A stretch of 64,000 nt of DNA from Verrucomicrobiota bacterium (GTDB lineage: Bacteria > Verrucomicrobiota > Verrucomicrobiia > Limisphaerales > UBA9464). How positions within the stretch are numbered: the first letter of the stretch is position 1; every line of letters starts with the position of its first letter. The position numbers and the translations under genes are program-made. Under the pieces are notes generated by a model. It ran no database searches. It was not told the origin of the DNA and was given only the letters and a program-made list of their open reading frames with translations. The DNA lies in the NCBI GenBank assembly GCA_947454705.1, contig CANGKZ010000002.1:1-64000 (forward strand). Reading direction: 5' to 3'. Positions 1,132-8,331 of the stretch are shown here, piece after piece.

Positions 1132-1902
1132 ATGTCGTTCCCCAAGGTCATTGAACTGGATGGAGTACAGGTGACGGATTCGCGCCGGATGGAGGCGCCA
1201 TCGGTAGGCGCGGTGAATTGGTCGGTGGCCCAGGGCGAGTGCTGGGTGGTGGGGGGATTGCAGGGTTCGGGGGTAACGGCGTTTTTGGAGACGGCTGCCG
1301 GGCTGCGTCCTCCGGAGTCAGGCGAGGTGAGGCTTTTCGGCGAGGCTTTGTCGGCGCTTCGCGGGGATTCGGTGGCTGCGATCCGGCGTCGGGTGGGCTA
1401 TTTGTTCTCCGGGAGCGGCCGGTTGATGACTCCGCTGACGGTGGTGGAAAACATCACCTTGCCGCTGCGCTACCATGCGGGGATTTCCTTTGCCGATGCG
1501 GTGGCGGAGGTCGCTCCGTTGGTGGAGTGGCTTGGGTTGGAACCGGTGGCGGGATTGCTGCCTATCCGGCTCGCGCGGAGCATGCGCCTGCGGGTGGCGC
1601 TGGCACGGGCGCTCGCGGTGCGGCCGGAGTTGCTGATTCTCGATGATCCAATCGCGGGCCTGGATTCGGGCCAGATCCGCTGGTGGCGGCAACTGGTGGA
1701 ATCGGTACTCAAGGGGCACCCTTGGTTCCACGGCCGGCCGGCCACGGTGGTGGTGGGGACCGAGGTGCTGCGTCCCTTTTTGCCGGTGGGGAATTGTTTT
1801 GCGATGATCCATCAGGGTTCGATGCATTGCCTCGGGGATCGGGAGGCGGTGTTGTCCTCGGAAGATCCCGGTGTTCGTGAAGTGCTCGGTGAACCTCTTT
1901 GA
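1132..1902 (+). CDS. ABC transporter ATPase subunit of the Mla/MCE system, catalytically degenerate
   Basis: By position, length (256 residues) and overall fold this is the MlaF-like ATPase partner of the MlaE permease, starting 4 bases after its stop. The ABC landmarks can be aligned but nearly all catalytic residues are gone. The Walker A reads GLQGSGVT, with valine (codon gta) where lysine is required. The Q-loop reads YLFSGSG, with Ser for Gln. The LSGGQ signature has become LARSMRLR. Walker B is LLILDDP, with Asp in place of the catalytic Glu. The H-loop reads VVVGTEV, with no His. Flanking structural positions (ALARALAVRPELLILDDPIAGLD) are well kept and the frame is open, so it looks like a maintained pseudoATPase rather than a dying gene. 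It may be structural, or pair with an active ATPase encoded elsewhere. The start at 1132 is preferred over an upstream in-frame ATG at 1093 inside mlaE. Confidence 0.8.
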   Translation: MSFPKVIELDGVQVTDSRRMEAPSVGAVNWSVAQGECWVVGGLQGSGVTAFLETAAGLRPPESGEVRLFGEALSALRGDSVAAIRRRVGYLFSGSGRLMTPLTVVENITLPLRYHAGISFADAVAEVAPLVEWLGLEPVAGLLPIRLARSMRLRVALARALAVRPELLILDDPIAGLDSGQIRWWRQLVESVLKGHPWFHGRPATVVVGTEVLRPFLPVGNCFAMIHQGSMHCLGDREAVLSSEDPGVREVLGEPL

Positions 1903-1918
1903 CTGACTCTCAACTGCC

Positions 1919-3085
1919 ATGGCCCTTCAAGATCTCACCCCGCAGCTCCGCACCCGCCTTCACAAGGTGGAGTGGATGGTCATGTCGTTCCTGGTCGGCG
2001 CCCTGCTGTTGATCGCTGGTTCGGTCACGTGGTTCATCCGGGCCACCGGCGAGGCGCGCGGGTGGTGGATCACCCAGGTGCCGTACTACACCTATGTGGC
2101 GCAGGGCACGGGGATCAAAGTCGGTACACCGGTGCAGTTGATGGGATTCAAGGTGGGGCAGGTGACGCAGGTGGAGCCGGTGAATCTGGATCTCCGCCGG
2201 AGCTGGGATTATTACGCGACCAACAATTTCAACGTGTACGTGGCCTTCACGGTGCATGAGCCGTATCCGGGCTACATCGGTACGGATTCGCGGGTGACGA
2301 TTGGCGGGTTTCCCATCGAGATCGCGGGTGGATTGACGCTGGATATTTCAGTGGGCTCACCAAATGCGGTGGTGACGGTGACGAACCTGCCTGGAGGGAA
2401 GATGGGGGTGCTCTGGGACAAGTTTGCCTACGCGCCGGATTCGCTGGACCGGACGAACAAGCTGCTCAAATACGGGCCCATCACGAACGGCAACAAGGGC
2501 TACTACCTGGCGCCGGACCAGTCGGAGACGCTGGTGGCGCAGGCGGGTCGGATCATGGCCAAGGTGGACCGGGTGAGCGGCGTGATCGACCTGGCGCTTC
2601 CGCGGATGACGAATCGGATCGAGAACCTGCTGGCGCGGGTGGACAGCATCGCGCAGAAGGTGGAGCCGGTGATCGGGCAGCCGGGAGGAATCGGGTCGCT
2701 GCTGGTGCCGACGAACCTGAACGCACGGCTCGACACGGTGCTGCTGGACTTGCACGAGCAGTCGGAGCGATTGGTGCCGACGATTGCCAAGGTGAACCGG
2801 ACCCTGGACACCGCGCAGCAGACGTCGGCCGAGGTGAAACCGTTGCTGCAGCAGATTCAATCGACGGTGGTGCAGGTGCACGAGACGGTGAAGGTCCTGC
2901 AGGCGAAGGTCGGTGAGACGAACCTGCTCTACAACGTGAGCCGGTTGGCAAACAACGCGGCGCAACTTTCGGAGACCACGGATTACCTGTTCCGGCATCA
3001 CTGGCTGTTCCGGTCGGCCTTCAGGACGAACAGCCCGTCGCGTCCGGTGCCGTTGCGAAGCGAATCGGTCCGGGATCGTCGCTGA
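1919..3085 (+). CDS. mlaD: MCE-domain (MlaD-like) substrate-binding protein
   Basis: This 388-residue protein is the periplasmic, membrane-anchored lipid-binding subunit of the Mla-type transporter. It has one N-terminal membrane helix at about residues 18-42 and then an MCE domain at roughly 55-145 (YVAQGTGIKVGTPVQLMGFKVG followed by IGTDSRVTIGG). A long helical and coiled region of about 200 residues follows (LARVDSIAQKVEPVIG, then TIAKVNRTLDTAQQTSAEVKPLL), typical of the longer MCE proteins that build a needle or tunnel rather than the short E. coli MlaD. It starts 16 bases after the ATPase and closes the operon. MlaB and MlaC homologues are absent here, as in many non-proteobacterial systems. 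Confidence 0.87.
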   Translation: MALQDLTPQLRTRLHKVEWMVMSFLVGALLLIAGSVTWFIRATGEARGWWITQVPYYTYVAQGTGIKVGTPVQLMGFKVGQVTQVEPVNLDLRRSWDYYATNNFNVYVAFTVHEPYPGYIGTDSRVTIGGFPIEIAGGLTLDISVGSPNAVVTVTNLPGGKMGVLWDKFAYAPDSLDRTNKLLKYGPITNGNKGYYLAPDQSETLVAQAGRIMAKVDRVSGVIDLALPRMTNRIENLLARVDSIAQKVEPVIGQPGGIGSLLVPTNLNARLDTVLLDLHEQSERLVPTIAKVNRTLDTAQQTSAEVKPLLQQIQSTVVQVHETVKVLQAKVGETNLLYNVSRLANNAAQLSETTDYLFRHHWLFRSAFRTNSPSRPVPLRSESVRDRR

Positions 3086-3212
3086 GAAGTAGGGGGGCGC
3101 CGGATTGGCCCCCAAAGGTGACCGTTTTCTTTCACCGATTTTTCAACACTTCGTCCGGATTTCCCACTAAGCTCGGTCGGTCCGTGAACTGGAATCCGCA
3201 ACGTTGTTGACT

Positions 3213-4082
3213 ATGAAAGGCATTATTCTCGCCGGGGGCTCTGGAACCCGTCTTCACCCCTTGACCCAGGTGGTCAGCAAGCAGCTGCTGCCGGTGTACG
3301 ACAAGCCGATGATTTATTATCCGCTGTCGGTCCTGCTGCTGGCCAACATCCGCGAGATCCTGATCATCTCGACCCCCAAGGATTTGCCGCGTTTTCGCGA
3401 CATCCTGGGCGACGGTTCTCGGCTCGGATGCAAGTTCACCTACGAGGAGCAGGCGCAGCCCAACGGACTGGCGCAGGCGTTCGTCATCGGTGAGAAGTTC
3501 ATTGGGAACGACGAGGTTTGCCTCATTCTGGGCGACAACATTTTCTACGCCGCCGGTTTTGGTCAGTTGCTGCGGTCGTGCCACAACCTCAACGGCGGGG
3601 TGGTGTTCGCGTATCCGGTGAAGGATCCGGAGCGTTTTGGCGTGGTGGAGTTCGGGGACGACGGGAAGGCGGTTTCGATCGAGGAAAAGCCGGCCAAGCC
3701 CAAGTCGATCTATGCCGTGCCGGGGTTGTATTTCTACGACAACAGTGTGGTGGAGCTCGCCAAGGCGCTGAAGCCGTCGGCGCGCGGGGAGTACGAGATC
3801 ACGGATCTGAACCGGGAGTTCCTGAAACAGGGGCGCCTGTCGGTGCGCGAATTGCCGCGTGGAACGGCCTGGATCGATACCGGCACGTTTGACTCCCTGT
3901 TGCAGGCGTCGTTGTTTGTCCAGGTGATCGAGGCCCGTCAGGGGTTCAAGATCGGTTGCGTGGAGGAGATCGCCTGGCGTCGCGGGTTCATCGACGACGC
4001 ACAGCTCCTTGCGTTGGCCGAGTCGATTTCCAAGTCCGGCTACGGCGAATACATCCGGTCGCTGGCCGGAACCAAACGCTAG
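3213..4082 (+). CDS. rfbA: Glucose-1-phosphate thymidylyltransferase
   Basis: RfbA joins dTTP and glucose-1-phosphate to make dTDP-glucose, the first step of the dTDP-L-rhamnose pathway. The 289-residue protein begins [18 protein letters not shown], the family nucleotide-binding signature, and retains [25 protein letters not shown] and the EEKPAKPKS segment; length is normal for the family. The ATG at 3213 fits this N-terminus; a TTG at 3204 would add three residues. No rfbB, rfbC or rfbD is nearby, so the rest of the pathway must be elsewhere. It heads a polysaccharide region with two glycosyltransferase-type genes downstream. Confidence 0.95.
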
Positions 4083-4161
4083 GTGGTCCTTCGGTGGATC
4101 CCTCGGCGCGGGGTCATGAATCTTGACGTTGCGCTGCATTCCTCCTCCAATCGCCGCTTTG

Positions 4162-4180
4162 GCGGGCCTTTCCGGCCCGC
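4162..4180 (+). terminator. Hairpin after rfbA
   Basis: A perfect 7-bp GC stem (GCGGGCC / GGCCCGC) with a 5-base loop lies 80 bases after the rfbA stop. There is no T-run, so termination is possible but weakly supported. Confidence 0.35.
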
Positions 4181-4245
4181 GTGCAGCGACTCGACGACTG
4201 AACGGCTAGACGCCACTGGCACACGCGCGCGGGTTGTTAGGAACT

Positions 4246-4992
4246 ATGACGTTTCGCAAGATCCTAGGAATACGCTACTTCGATGGAACCCTTCAGGAGC
4301 TCCTCCGGGAAATCCAGAAGGGGGGATTGATTGTGGTTCCTTCGGGTCCCAACCTTGCCGACTTGGCCGTACTTCATGCGTACCGTCGAGCGGTGGAGAA
4401 TGCCCGGTTCGCCATCAGCGACAGCAGTTATCTCGTACTCCTTTGGAAATTGCGCACCGGGGAATGGTTGCAGCGGATCTCGGGGTTGCAGTTTCTGCGG
4501 GGTCTGGTGGATGACCCACCGTTCCGCGAAAAGGACGCGACCTTTTGGGTCATGCCCTCGCAATCGGATCTGGAGTGCAACATCGCCTGGCTCAACCGCG
4601 AGGGCATTCCGGTGAAGTCGGAGCACTGTTACATCGCCCCGAAGTACCCCTCGGGGGATATCGTCGACGAACCACTGCTGGCGGCGATCGAAGCCCAGAA
4701 GCCCCGGTATGTGGTGATCAATATTGGGGGTGGGATTCAGGAGATTCTTGGGAATTTCCTTCAGACCCGACTCTCGTATCAGCCCACGATCATCTGCACG
4801 GGAGCCGCGATCGCGTTCCTCTCCGGACGGCAGGCGAACATCAAACCGTGGGTGGACCGCATGATGCTTGGCTGGTTTGCCCGATGCCTGGATGATCCCA
4901 AGCGATTCATTCCCCGATACCTGCGTGCAATCCGGCTTTGCTGGGTCCTGATGCGGTATGCCGATCGTTCCGTCCCAGCCGCCCGAACCTGA
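4246..4992 (+). CDS. WecG/TagA/CpsF-family glycosyltransferase
   Basis: This 248-residue protein belongs to the GT26 family, which transfers N-acetylmannosamine(uronate) or related sugars onto an undecaprenyl-linked acceptor on the cytoplasmic membrane face. Family hallmarks are VVPSGPNLADL near the start, a DSSYLVLL stretch in the position of the family's D(G)xG..., and a C-terminal GGGIQEILGNF... TIICTGAAIAFLSG segment replacing the usual G.P.QE.W and GVGA.FD.. blocks. A short AGGA precedes the ATG at 4246. It sits between rfbA and the sugar transferase, consistent with assembly of a lipid-linked glycan. The acceptor and sugar cannot be told from sequence. Confidence 0.8.
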   Translation: MTFRKILGIRYFDGTLQELLREIQKGGLIVVPSGPNLADLAVLHAYRRAVENARFAISDSSYLVLLWKLRTGEWLQRISGLQFLRGLVDDPPFREKDATFWVMPSQSDLECNIAWLNREGIPVKSEHCYIAPKYPSGDIVDEPLLAAIEAQKPRYVVINIGGGIQEILGNFLQTRLSYQPTIICTGAAIAFLSGRQANIKPWVDRMMLGWFARCLDDPKRFIPRYLRAIRLCWVLMRYADRSVPAART

Positions 4993-5010
4993 CCCCAAGC
5001 CACCTTTAGG

Positions 5011-5922
5011 ATGTCCAGACTTTACCGACTTCTTGGGATCGTAATCGCCGTGTTTTGCGCCGTGTACGGGGGGCAGATCGTGCGCCAAATCATGGCGACC
5101 GAGCTCACCTACCAGAGCTTCTGGCACTACCTGGTTCGCGTGTTCCTAATCCTCGGCATGGGAATTGTCGGCGTCCTGATTCTCAGCAATTTCTCGGTCT
5201 ATAACCCGTCCGAAGTGATCGGCACGCCCCCGACTCCGGAAGTGGGTTTCAAGTTGTCGAACCAGCTCAAGCGAATCACGGATGTGGGGGTGGCCATCGT
5301 GCTCCTGTTCGTGCTTTCTCCCATCCTGATTCTGATTCCGGTCCTGATTTTCATCATCGAGGGCTATCCGGTGTTCTACATCTCGAAGCGCTACATCTCC
5401 CTGAGCAACTGCGTGTCGGTCCTGAAATATCGGACGATGGTTCGCGATGCGACTTCCCCCAAGTACCGGTTGCGTGAGCGGTTCATGCGGAGTGGTTACC
5501 TCGACATCCCGCTGAGCTGTGAAGTGTACACCCCGTTGGGGCGGATTCTGGAGCGGACCCAGCTGGTGGAGATCCTCCAGCTTTTCAATGTGCTGCTCCA
5601 CGGCATGAGCCTCATCGGCAACCGTCCGCTGCCGCTGGACAACATCAAACTGCTCCAGAATTTCAAGGGCTGGGAGCATCGCTTCGACAGCCCGGCCGGC
5701 CTCACCGGAATCACGCAGGTGGTGGGCAAACACAACCAGTCCCCGGAGCAGCGGCTCGAGCTCGAGTGCATGTATTCGAAGCTCTACAAATCGGAGACCG
5801 CGAATATCTTCCGCTGCGACATCTGGATTGCCTACTACACGGTGCGAATGCTTCTCACGGGCAAGACCCTTTCCATTGAAGGGGCGAAGGAGTTGATCCG
5901 TTCGGTGTCCGGAGAGGAGTAG
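5011..5922 (+). CDS. Initiating sugar transferase (WcaJ/WbaP-type polyprenyl phosphate sugar-1-P transferase)
   Basis: The 303-residue protein has two hydrophobic N-terminal segments (about 5-25 and 42-64), then the bacterial sugar transferase domain from about residue 85 with its membrane helix (DVGVAIVLLFVLSPILILIP). The catalytic half keeps VLKYRTM and HGMSLIGNRPLPLDN, equivalent to the family's KFRTM and RGEMSLVGPRPE blocks, and GLTGITQVVGK. Such enzymes load the first sugar-phosphate onto undecaprenyl phosphate to start exopolysaccharide, capsule or O-antigen synthesis. Two differences from the family stand out: Asn for Gly/Pro in the LIGNRP motif, and no CoA-binding-type N-terminal domain. 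It follows the WecG-like gene by 18 bases. Confidence 0.82.
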   Translation: MSRLYRLLGIVIAVFCAVYGGQIVRQIMATELTYQSFWHYLVRVFLILGMGIVGVLILSNFSVYNPSEVIGTPPTPEVGFKLSNQLKRITDVGVAIVLLFVLSPILILIPVLIFIIEGYPVFYISKRYISLSNCVSVLKYRTMVRDATSPKYRLRERFMRSGYLDIPLSCEVYTPLGRILERTQLVEILQLFNVLLHGMSLIGNRPLPLDNIKLLQNFKGWEHRFDSPAGLTGITQVVGKHNQSPEQRLELECMYSKLYKSETANIFRCDIWIAYYTVRMLLTGKTLSIEGAKELIRSVSGEE

Positions 5923-6030
5923 CTCCCAGCCGAATCCGTTGAAGGGATTGAACCCCGTCCTCCCCGCCGGCAGGGAGTTCCGTTCCGGGATGGTTCCCAC
6001 GTGTCGAATCCGGGCCATAAACCCGGGCCA

Positions 6031-6762
6031 ATGACCTCGATGAAAATTCTGATTCTCGGCGCCTCCTCACAGGTGGGCATTGCACTGGCCAGGGCGTTTG
6101 CTCCGGGTCATGAACTGTTGCTCGTCGGCCGTCAGGCGTCGCGACTGAACGAGGCGGTCGAGGCGTGCAGGACCGCGGGGGCCGCATCGGCCACGCCGGT
6201 GGCGCTCGACCTCACCTCTGATTTACTGGCCCTGCATCCACATCTGCAGGGCGGGGCGGTGGACCTGATTGTCGATGCCGCATCGGCCAGTTCCGCGCTG
6301 CGGGATTCCGAGATTTCTGCCGATGCATTTTCCGGCCTCGTGGTGGCGGATGTGCTGTCGCGTCCGCGCCTGATGGATCTAATCCTGTCGATGCAGCAGT
6401 CGGCCCCCGCGGTGATCCTCATTTCGTCGGTGCTTGCCCGGATTCGGAGTCAGGACCGCGCGGTTTATTCCTCCCTCAAGCAGCTGCAGGAAGCGCATCT
6501 GAATTCACTGCGACGCGCGATTCCCTCCCTTCGGTTGATGGTGGTGTACGTGGGCATGGTGATCGACACGCAGCGTCCCACGGACAAACCGGTTCAATTG
6601 GCCGCAGCGGTTCTGCGGGGATTCCAGGAGGGTCGATCCGTCGTGGCCCACGGGACGATGGGGCATCTCTACTATTTGTTGTACCATCTCCAACCGGTGG
6701 TCTTCGGCTGGGTCACGCGTCTGCAGCGGGCCTTGCGTGGACGACGACCCAAGCAGGGCTAG
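6031..6762 (+). CDS. Short-chain dehydrogenase/reductase (SDR)
   Basis: A Rossmann-fold SDR of 243 residues. The dinucleotide-binding loop is LGASSQVGIALARAF, a Ser lies in VILISSVLARI, and the catalytic pair is YSSLK at about residue 148, matching the family YxxxK. The C-terminus carries a hydrophobic and basic tail (LYYLLYHLQPVVFGWVTRLQRALRGRR) that may hold it at the membrane. That arrangement recalls DprE2-like SDRs that act on decaprenyl-linked sugars, which would fit this polysaccharide region, but this is inference. GTG at 6001 or ATG at 6040 are alternative starts. Confidence 0.75.
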   Translation: MTSMKILILGASSQVGIALARAFAPGHELLLVGRQASRLNEAVEACRTAGAASATPVALDLTSDLLALHPHLQGGAVDLIVDAASASSALRDSEISADAFSGLVVADVLSRPRLMDLILSMQQSAPAVILISSVLARIRSQDRAVYSSLKQLQEAHLNSLRRAIPSLRLMVVYVGMVIDTQRPTDKPVQLAAAVLRGFQEGRSVVAHGTMGHLYYLLYHLQPVVFGWVTRLQRALRGRRPKQG

Positions 6763-6813
6763 CCGGTCCGGATCCGAGCGGCGTGCCTCCGTCGATCGGC
6801 AACGCCGCCTACG

Positions 6814-8331
6814 TCACGTCTTGGTTCCACTGTCCCGCTGCACCAGCGTGGTGAATGCCGCGAGGACGAGCAGGAATTCCACCTGAAGCGAGGCCATCTG
6901 GAACGGGAAGTCGAACAGCCCGTGGATCAGCATGCCCGCCAGACCAAGATAGAAATACATCCCGAGGTTGGTCTTGCCGCCACCGTATCGAAGTTGGTGT
7001 TTCGGGAGGATCAGCGCGATGGCCAGGATACCCACCAGCATAGCGGTTCCCACGGCTCCGAGGGTGATTACGGCCTCCATCCAATCGTTGTGGGCGTAGG
7101 CGGTCCAGGTTTCCTTCAGGGTCTCCTTGTAGAAGGGCTGGATGGTGGCGAAGGTATCGGCGCCGGAACCCAGCCATTTGAAGTCCTGCATCATGCGCAC
7201 GGACTCGCGGAAGACCACCAGCCGGTTGGAGTAGGGATCAGGCTCGGGGTTCCGGAGGCGTCCCAGGATAACGGAGCCGCCGATCCCGATCGCCGCAGCG
7301 AGCAGCGCGATGAATCCGCCGAAGATGAGCAGGCGTCGGGTGAGGCTGAGTCGAGAGGGGGCCATGGAGTAGGCAAGACCCACGGCCAGGGTGAGCAACG
7401 CGGTGATCAGCGCGCCGCCGCGGCTTCCTGAAATGATCGGTGCGGCGCCGATGACCAAGGTCCAGGGCAGAAGCAGGATGTGGGGGCCCTGTCCGACGCG
7501 GACGTCCACGCCGCGGCGACGGCGTTCGGTTTCGCGCGAGAAACTCCACAGGCCGAGCACCAGGGGCCAGACCAGGTTGAAGTACTCGGCCGCGTTTCCG
7601 CGATAATTGTAGGGACCGAAGTGGAAATTGGTGGGGTAGCTCCAGATTGAATTCGGATCGGGATGACGCGGAGTCAGCAGCCACAGGAGCTTGTCCGTGC
7701 CGTCGAGACGTTGAATTACACACACCGCCGCCAGAAGGAAGGAGCTGCCGGAGAGGGTCCACAGCCACCACTGGAGCCGCTGGCCCGGGAAGACCACGGC
7801 GTCCACTTCGGTCTCGCGCCGCTCGGTGCGGGTTTTCCCCAGAAACCAATCGCGCGCCGCCCAGAAGACCCAGGAGAACCCAAACCAGCGCCAGAAGGCA
7901 TTCCACGAAACCGGCGCATCGTAGCTCGCCGGCAGCCATACGATCGGGGTGCGCTCGACGTAGTTCAGATTTACCCCCTGGTTTTCACCTGCCGGGATGT
8001 ATTCGCCCACCGCGCGGGCATTGAACACGCCGATCACCACGTACAGAAGGAATGCAATGTTCAGCCCGGCGAGGATGCGGATCAACCGGGTGCCGGCCGG
8101 CGTGGGTTCGGACCACCGACTGGGGCGATACCCGGTCTGCTTGCGAACGACCCATTTGCCGATGAGCAACGCTCCGGAGAGGTAGGCGGCGGTGCAGAGG
8201 ATCTGCAGCGTCCGCGGGGTGGCGGATCCGAACGCCCACGGGGCCCAGAGGGTCATGAAGATCAACACCGTGGCGCTGGCGCGATCGAGGTGCTTGTAGG
8301 CCTCGGGGGTCCGATTCGAGGAGCGTTCCAT
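6814..8331 (-). CDS. O-antigen ligase / polymerase-like membrane protein (WaaL/Wzy superfamily)
   Basis: The 505-residue protein has about 11-12 transmembrane helices and a large periplasmic loop near residues 110-215. The late region (GRLRNPEPDPYSNRLVVFRESVRMMQDFKWLGSGADTF... TAYAHNDWMEAV) matches the O-antigen ligase family segment with the invariant Arg and the H-N-D/E motif. These enzymes join or polymerise undecaprenyl-linked glycans on the outer face of the inner membrane. It converges with the SDR gene and is divergent from larE. I cannot separate ligase from polymerase function by reading alone. Confidence 0.8.
   Translation of the reverse strand: MERSSNRTPEAYKHLDRASATVLIFMTLWAPWAFGSATPRTLQILCTAAYLSGALLIGKWVVRKQTGYRPSRWSEPTPAGTRLIRILAGLNIAFLLYVVIGVFNARAVGEYIPAGENQGVNLNYVERTPIVWLPASYDAPVSWNAFWRWFGFSWVFWAARDWFLGKTRTERRETEVDAVVFPGQRLQWWLWTLSGSSFLLAAVCVIQRLDGTDKLLWLLTPRHPDPNSIWSYPTNFHFGPYNYRGNAAEYFNLVWPLVLGLWSFSRETERRRRGVDVRVGQGPHILLLPWTLVIGAAPIISGSRGGALITALLTLAVGLAYSMAPSRLSLTRRLLIFGGFIALLAAAIGIGGSVILGRLRNPEPDPYSNRLVVFRESVRMMQDFKWLGSGADTFATIQPFYKETLKETWTAYAHNDWMEAVITLGAVGTAMLVGILAIALILPKHQLRYGGGKTNLGMYFYLGLAGMLIHGLFDFPFQMASLQVEFLLVLAAFTTLVQRDSGTKT

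Follow-up and report, generated by a model that had tools for sequence, protein, structure and literature searches.

Can an ABC ATPase that has lost every catalytic motif remain a conserved part of a lipid transport system? The question is raised by the first operon of the window, the 64,000-nucleotide stretch of Verrucomicrobiota DNA analysed here. Three genes follow one another closely on the plus strand at the start of the window. The first (294-1127, GTG start, 277 aa) encodes an MlaE permease, the second (1132-1902, 256 aa) an MlaF-type ATPase and the third (1919-3085, 388 aa) an MlaD-like MCE-domain protein. The intergenic distances are 4 and 16 bases. The genes adjoining the ATPase gene both score above cut-off for their families (PF02405, 165.9 bits; PF02470, 31.5 bits), and the ATPase gene supplies the ABC component of this MlaE-MlaF-MlaD operon. 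We call this protein and its family F*, and its partners MlaE* and MlaD*. MlaD* has an N-terminal hydrophobic stretch, identified by eye, followed by the MCE domain and a long C-terminal region. Base 1 of the window is the start of the contig, and the genes read lie on the downstream side of the operon; MlaA, MlaB and MlaC are absent from the five genes searched there. These genes (3204-8328) form a polysaccharide cluster encoding a nucleotidyl transferase, a WecG-type glycosyltransferase, a sugar transferase, a short-chain dehydrogenase and, on the opposite strand, an O-antigen ligase-like protein.

All five catalytic motifs of the window's F* are changed. In an alignment with 61 canonical MlaF sequences, this protein has none of the five residues expected of a functional MlaF-type ATPase, and all 61 comparators have all five. 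The Walker A remnant GLQGSGVT (1255-1278, residues 42-49) carries V48 in place of the Lys (codon 1273-1275). At the Q-loop position (1408-1410) the Gln is replaced by S93, and the signature (1570-1584, residues 147-151) reads LARSM instead of LSGGM. Walker B (1642-1647) keeps its Asp, D171, and has D172 in place of the catalytic Glu (codon 1645-1647). The H-loop reads GTE (1756-1764), with E211 (1762-1764), just after T210, at the position of the His. D178 of the D-loop is retained. The changes given in the preliminary description are right at every site, and its statement that frame and length are intact also holds, with an ATG at 1132 and a stop codon at 1900-1902.

The fold itself is predicted to be intact. 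F* scores 66.4 bits against the Pfam ABC_tran model, for which the cut-off is 25; given this easy pass, it would probably be annotated as an ordinary ATP-binding protein. The AlphaFold2 model, calculated from an alignment made up mostly of canonical ABC proteins, has a pLDDT of 93.8 and a pTM of 0.92. When the model was compared with the PDB by Foldseek, the top match was E. coli MlaF (6xbd_I, TM 0.86). VIA-align ranked P. aeruginosa MlaF first (7ch8_J, Z 30.1, rmsd 2.2 Å over 242 aligned residues), with MetN and other ABC ATPases tied with it. The NCBI equivalog model for MlaF, NF008809, does not decide on F* (79.6 bits, cut-off 441), because the canonical MlaF proteins of the same genome (190.8 and 136 bits) miss the cut-off too. 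The protein occupies the place of MlaF, as proposed, and is predicted to keep its fold.

F* is widespread in the order to which the genome belongs. A homologue was found at an E value of 1e-40 or better in 48 of 58 genomes searched, including the window's own, and a profile was built from 36 of these 48. Searched with this profile, 206 of the 293 genomes of the order have a match at 1e-52 or better, a count that includes near-threshold matches which could be canonical (e.g. G349, G352, G398 and G468). F* is present in 128 of 154 good-quality genomes and in 92 of 118 genera; no match was obtained in 87 of the 293 genomes, or in 26 of the 154 good-quality ones. A sample of 288 genomes of the phylum, 287 of them from outside the order, was searched as well, nine candidates per genome being scored in both searches. 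The window's own F* scored 350 bits and the best outside match 175; F* stood out in none of the 287 genomes of other orders. Twenty-nine high-ranking matches from these orders were fetched, and all proved to be canonical with full motifs. F* thus appears to be confined to the window's order within the genomes sampled. Two public Verrucomicrobia metagenome genomes also have F*, and their sequences match those of G002 and G004, which belong to the window's genus.

We then compared 100 F* sequences, one per genome: the 48 from the search of 58 genomes, those of G040 and G046, and 50 better-scoring matches from the order-wide search, weak scorers being under-represented in this set. Loci left out of both the F* and the canonical sets were L178, whose ATPase is eroded, L321, a partial gene, and L307, L310 and L317, which lack an MlaF. 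L307 (G018:C176) and L310 (G024:C77) contain apparent orphan MlaE permeases, with no canonical-type MlaF in the 3.5-3.7 kb fetched; the MlaE of L307 was read as canonical in type.

Four of the five losses are family traits. The first signature Gly is found in 0 of the 100 F*, with Arg in its place in 73. The catalytic Glu persists in 2 and is replaced by Asn in 76 and Asp in 12. At the Q-loop position there are 3 Gln, 46 Glu and 31 Asp; at the H-loop position 5 His, 57 Asp and 20 Glu, compared with His in 61 of 61 canonical proteins. Five F* keep none of the five canonical residues, 85 keep one and 10 keep two. All five residues are present in canonical MlaF from the same order (32 of 32, near-copies included, picked next to high-scoring MlaE) and from other orders (29 of 29). 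Chance and a sequencing error at the five sites were considered and ruled out, the losses being common to other genomes. F* also has features of its own that differ from canonical MlaF: Y114 is invariant, W30 and W184 are found in 97% of sequences, W38, G195 and L161 in 96% and W185 in 94%, and there is an insertion near residues 196-201 that canonical MlaF lacks.

The fifth site behaves differently. At the Walker A Lys position the 100 F* have 95 Lys, 3 Val, 1 Ile and 1 Arg. The substitutions expected to be shared with relatives are therefore shared at four sites by nearly all F*, whereas the Walker A Lys is still there in most. The residue that follows it is Ser or Thr in 99, the Walker B Asp is present in all 100 and the D-loop Asp in 85. 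This retention could mean that F* is a non-hydrolysing nucleotide switch, which binds ATP or ADP through the Walker A/B half and gates the conduit according to the energy state of the cell. We consider such a switch rather unlikely: with no F* keeping the first signature Gly, the usual ATP-driven closure of the dimer is not to be expected. Moreover, the aromatic residue that precedes Walker A (Phe or Tyr in 41 of 61 canonical MlaF) is mostly replaced by small or polar residues in F*, and the window's own clade lacks the Lys. On this reading, the loss of the Lys would have turned the switch into a permanent gate in that subclade.

The order of these events was examined in a tree of 78 sequences, comprising 46 canonical MlaF, 31 F* and L178. 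The canonical MlaF lie on one side of a branch of length 1.51 (support 99/99), and the 31 F* and L178 on the other. A group of the 31 F* that excludes L178 is weakly supported (80/56; 78% of 200 bootstrap trees), and long-branch attraction is possible, long branches having been flagged by the tree program. The four F* in which the Lys is replaced by Val or Ile, those of the window (L001), L111, L112 and L113, form a single clade (100/99). The Lys is retained in the four further F* read from the genus (L114, L116, L117 and L118), and a distant F*, L163, has Arg at this position. As four losses are found in nearly all F* while the Lys is gone from one clade, the sequences place the catalytic losses early and the loss of the Lys late, in a four-genome subclade of the window's genus. 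The genome of L178 (G027:C262, about 1370-2855) carries an ordinary F* (L129) as well, so that L178 is its second MlaE*/F*-like pair. In L178 erosion of the ATPase motifs has gone further still (GAGTS, VPRDKG, LEPRERW and LLDRP), and it sits on a very long branch.

F* is under purifying selection. The Nei-Gojobori dN/dS values of nine F* pairs are 0.094, 0.166, 0.115, 0.208, 0.075, 0.114, 0.157, 0.137 and 0.246, some dS values of the analysis being near saturation and one MlaD* pair and one MlaE* pair covering 17 and 63 codons. A ratio below 1 among relatives, which the preliminary description had named as its check, was thus obtained in every pair (0.075-0.246). The value of 0.137 belongs to L111 and L113, which already lack the Lys. 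For four genome pairs canonical MlaF could be compared directly, giving 0.020 and 0.052 for the first, 0.064 for the second (a third canonical type, resting on a dS of 0.026), 0.085 and 0.040 for the third and 0.042 for the fourth. In these pairs F* ranges from 0.075 to 0.208 and canonical MlaF from 0.020 to 0.085; pair by pair, the ratio of the F* value to the canonical one is 1.8 to 5.2.

This higher dN/dS, together with a Lys loss limited to one subclade, would speak for a gene decaying in the window's genome. We give that explanation hardly any credence. The frame is open, the operon is tight, the motif losses are common to all 100 F* genomes read, and dN/dS is far under 1 even after the Lys had gone; a pseudogene was dropped on the last two grounds.

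Another reading is that F* is a divergent active ATPase in which other residues do the work: Asn or Asp instead of the catalytic Glu, Glu or Asp instead of the Q-loop Gln, Arg within the signature, and Asp or Glu instead of the His. The replacements are indeed conserved (Asn in 76, Arg in 73, Glu plus Asp in 77 at the Q-loop and Asp plus Glu in 77 at the H-loop, of 100 F*). However, the catalytic Glu, the His and the signature are lost together, and the window's clade dispenses with the Lys as well while the pair tested in it is still under purifying selection. This makes an active enzyme improbable. From the motifs, F* probably does not hydrolyse ATP. The suggestion of a conserved non-hydrolysing ATPase in an Mla-type operon is upheld in so far as F* is conserved and probably non-hydrolysing, but the loss of the Lys is limited to one subclade.

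The partners of F* are constant companions. MlaE* adjoins F* in all 21 neighbourhoods compared (20 relatives and the window) and is present at 97 of the 100 F* loci. MlaD* was found by BLAST downstream of F* in 18 of the 21 neighbourhoods and not in the other three (L285, L290 and L296). Apart from these three genes, and with overlapping frames excluded, none recurs in more than 4 of the 21 neighbourhoods; the polysaccharide genes downstream in the window are not among the recurring ones. Both partners had been described as normal, which is true of their reading frames but not of their sequences. MlaE* belongs to a divergent subfamily, scoring 166 bits against PF02405 compared with 255 and 244 for the two canonical MlaE of the same genome, and MlaD* scores 34 bits against PF02470 compared with 67 and 63 for the other two MlaD.

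In the MlaE family a coupling helix docks onto the ATPase. The coupling helix of MlaE*, GEVEALEALGVDPIHYLVVPR (residues 144-164), is nearly invariant across the 97 loci: E145, L149, D155, H158, P163 and R164 are found in all 97 and E150 in 96. Canonical MlaE is variable at positions 150, 155 and 158. Such invariance fits a permease still tied to a fixed partner, presumably F*, and F* probably docks on MlaE*. A charge swap between MlaE* E150 and F* R97 was considered and dropped, Glu also being found at this position in 22 of 29 canonical MlaE of other orders. Because the AlphaFold2 model of MlaD* is poor (pLDDT 41.6, 3 sequences), it is by its length that MlaD* suggests a long tunnel.

Could F* instead be the inactive half of a mixed dimer? 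It had been proposed that a second ATPase, encoded elsewhere, might form a one-sided heterodimer with it, as in TAP or CFTR; F* and a canonical MlaF of another operon would then sit on one permease. Canonical components are certainly at hand. An MlaE with an E value below 1e-69, taken as canonical by its score, is present in 57 of 58 genomes including the window's own, the exception being 54% complete. The window's genome has three MlaE, three MlaD and two canonical MlaF with intact motifs (L002 and L005, on contigs C39 and C45). However, each of these two MlaF already has its own MlaE and MlaD. Searched with NCBI's MlaF model, the genome yielded no unpaired MlaF: the matches are these two proteins, followed by CysA-like and FbpC/PotA-like ATPases identified by reading, which together make up the individually classified part of 54 ABC matches. 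In an ABC dimer, one subunit contributes the Walker half of an ATP site and the other subunit its signature half, and degenerate subunits of the TAP or CFTR kind retain one half of the site. F* has neither half intact. A dimer of F* and canonical MlaF would therefore contain no complete composite site, and we regard such a partnership as very doubtful. Among other MlaF sequences, a third canonical type with intact motifs, sharing about 37-43% identity with the C39 type, was observed in several of the order's genomes (L166, L171, L175, L305 and L308). In an MlaF-like protein from an Archangium metagenome contig (L074), the signature is altered (VGPGI) while the Walker motifs and the His are intact.

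The reading that we prefer, with a probability of about one half, is that F* acts as a dedicated pseudo-ATPase and holds an MCE lipid conduit whose operation requires no ATP hydrolysis. An old MlaF paralogue would have retained the ABC fold and the docking onto its own permease, MlaE*, and ATP hydrolysis would have been lost in the ancestor of the F* family. F* would keep the permease dimer in shape, and the E*-F*-D* complex would form an inter-membrane conduit for lipid, its presumed cargo, with flow driven by a gradient or by partners. In relatives with both the Lys and the Walker B Asp, nucleotide may still be bound and play a structural or regulatory part; in the window's subclade even the Walker A Lys is gone. 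The step from sequence to dead motor is a strong one; from the dead motor we infer an unpowered conduit. Passive flow of lipid, and its direction, are conjecture argued from other systems. Two sets of observations weigh against a dedicated conduit built on F*: it has no match in 87 of the 293 genomes of the order, and its dN/dS is above that of canonical MlaF. In addition, a pure scaffold is difficult to reconcile with the retention of the Lys in 95 and the Walker B Asp in 100 of 100 F*, which indicates that nucleotide still matters in most of the family. More tentatively, and with distinctly less confidence, we propose that this order turned an ABC lipid transporter into an ATP-independent conduit with the dead motor as a structural part. 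A single cell would then run MCE channels of both kinds, powered and unpowered, perhaps in opposite directions. With a dead motor, E*-F*-D* would also be an ABC transporter without any consensus nucleotide site.

The closest known systems are the MlaFEDB complexes of E. coli, P. aeruginosa and A. baumannii (PDB 6xbd, 7ch8 and 7d06), which share with E*-F*-D* the gene trio, the ABC fold, the MlaE permease and the MCE protein. In contrast to them, F* is changed at all five catalytic positions, MlaD* is longer, and there is no MlaA, MlaB or MlaC in the five downstream genes searched. According to PMC10665443, most diderms are argued to use a three-gene MlaEFD with a long MlaD and no MlaABC. E*-F*-D* resembles this minimal system, as found in Veillonella and most diderms, in its three genes, its long MlaD and in needing no MlaABC; it differs in that F* is catalytically stripped and co-occurs with two canonical MlaEFD operons. 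The review PMC10212509 reports lipid transfer from MlaD to MlaC in the absence of ATP, a spontaneous process that is blocked when ATP is hydrolysed; it presents the direction of phospholipid transport by Mla-type systems, and the role of ATP in it, as disputed. In the light of ATP-free transfer from MlaD to MlaC and of the minimal MlaEFD, an MlaEFD whose motor is dead would act as an unpowered conduit next to the two powered ones.

Other systems resemble E*-F*-D* in part. In PqiABC and LetAB (YebST), the MCE conduit has no ABC ATPase and the membrane partners are not MlaE and carry no ABC subunit, whereas E*-F*-D* retains one, though a dead one. Both are MCE systems of E. coli (PMC10897342). 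In the degenerate-site transporters TAP, CFTR, TmrAB and BmrCD, the catalytic Glu and other motif residues are lost as a conserved trait, as in F*. These transporters keep one complete composite site each, whereas a homodimer of F* would lack any. MceG is an active ATPase that different systems share. In Mycobacterium it serves the Mce1 and Mce4 transporters (PMC9947336), and one MCE ATPase serving several permeases indicates that sharing is possible in principle; unlike MceG, F* has lost the catalytic residues, and the search of the window's genome yielded no unpaired MlaF. No report of a catalytically dead MlaF was found among the matches listed in the open-licence literature, judged by title and opening of the abstract. 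A natural dead-motor Mla complex under selection offers a ready-made test of MlaEFD without ATP hydrolysis. Set against these systems, the parts of E*-F*-D* are those known from Mla, and what is new is that the motor has been lost and that this loss is fixed in a large part of an order.
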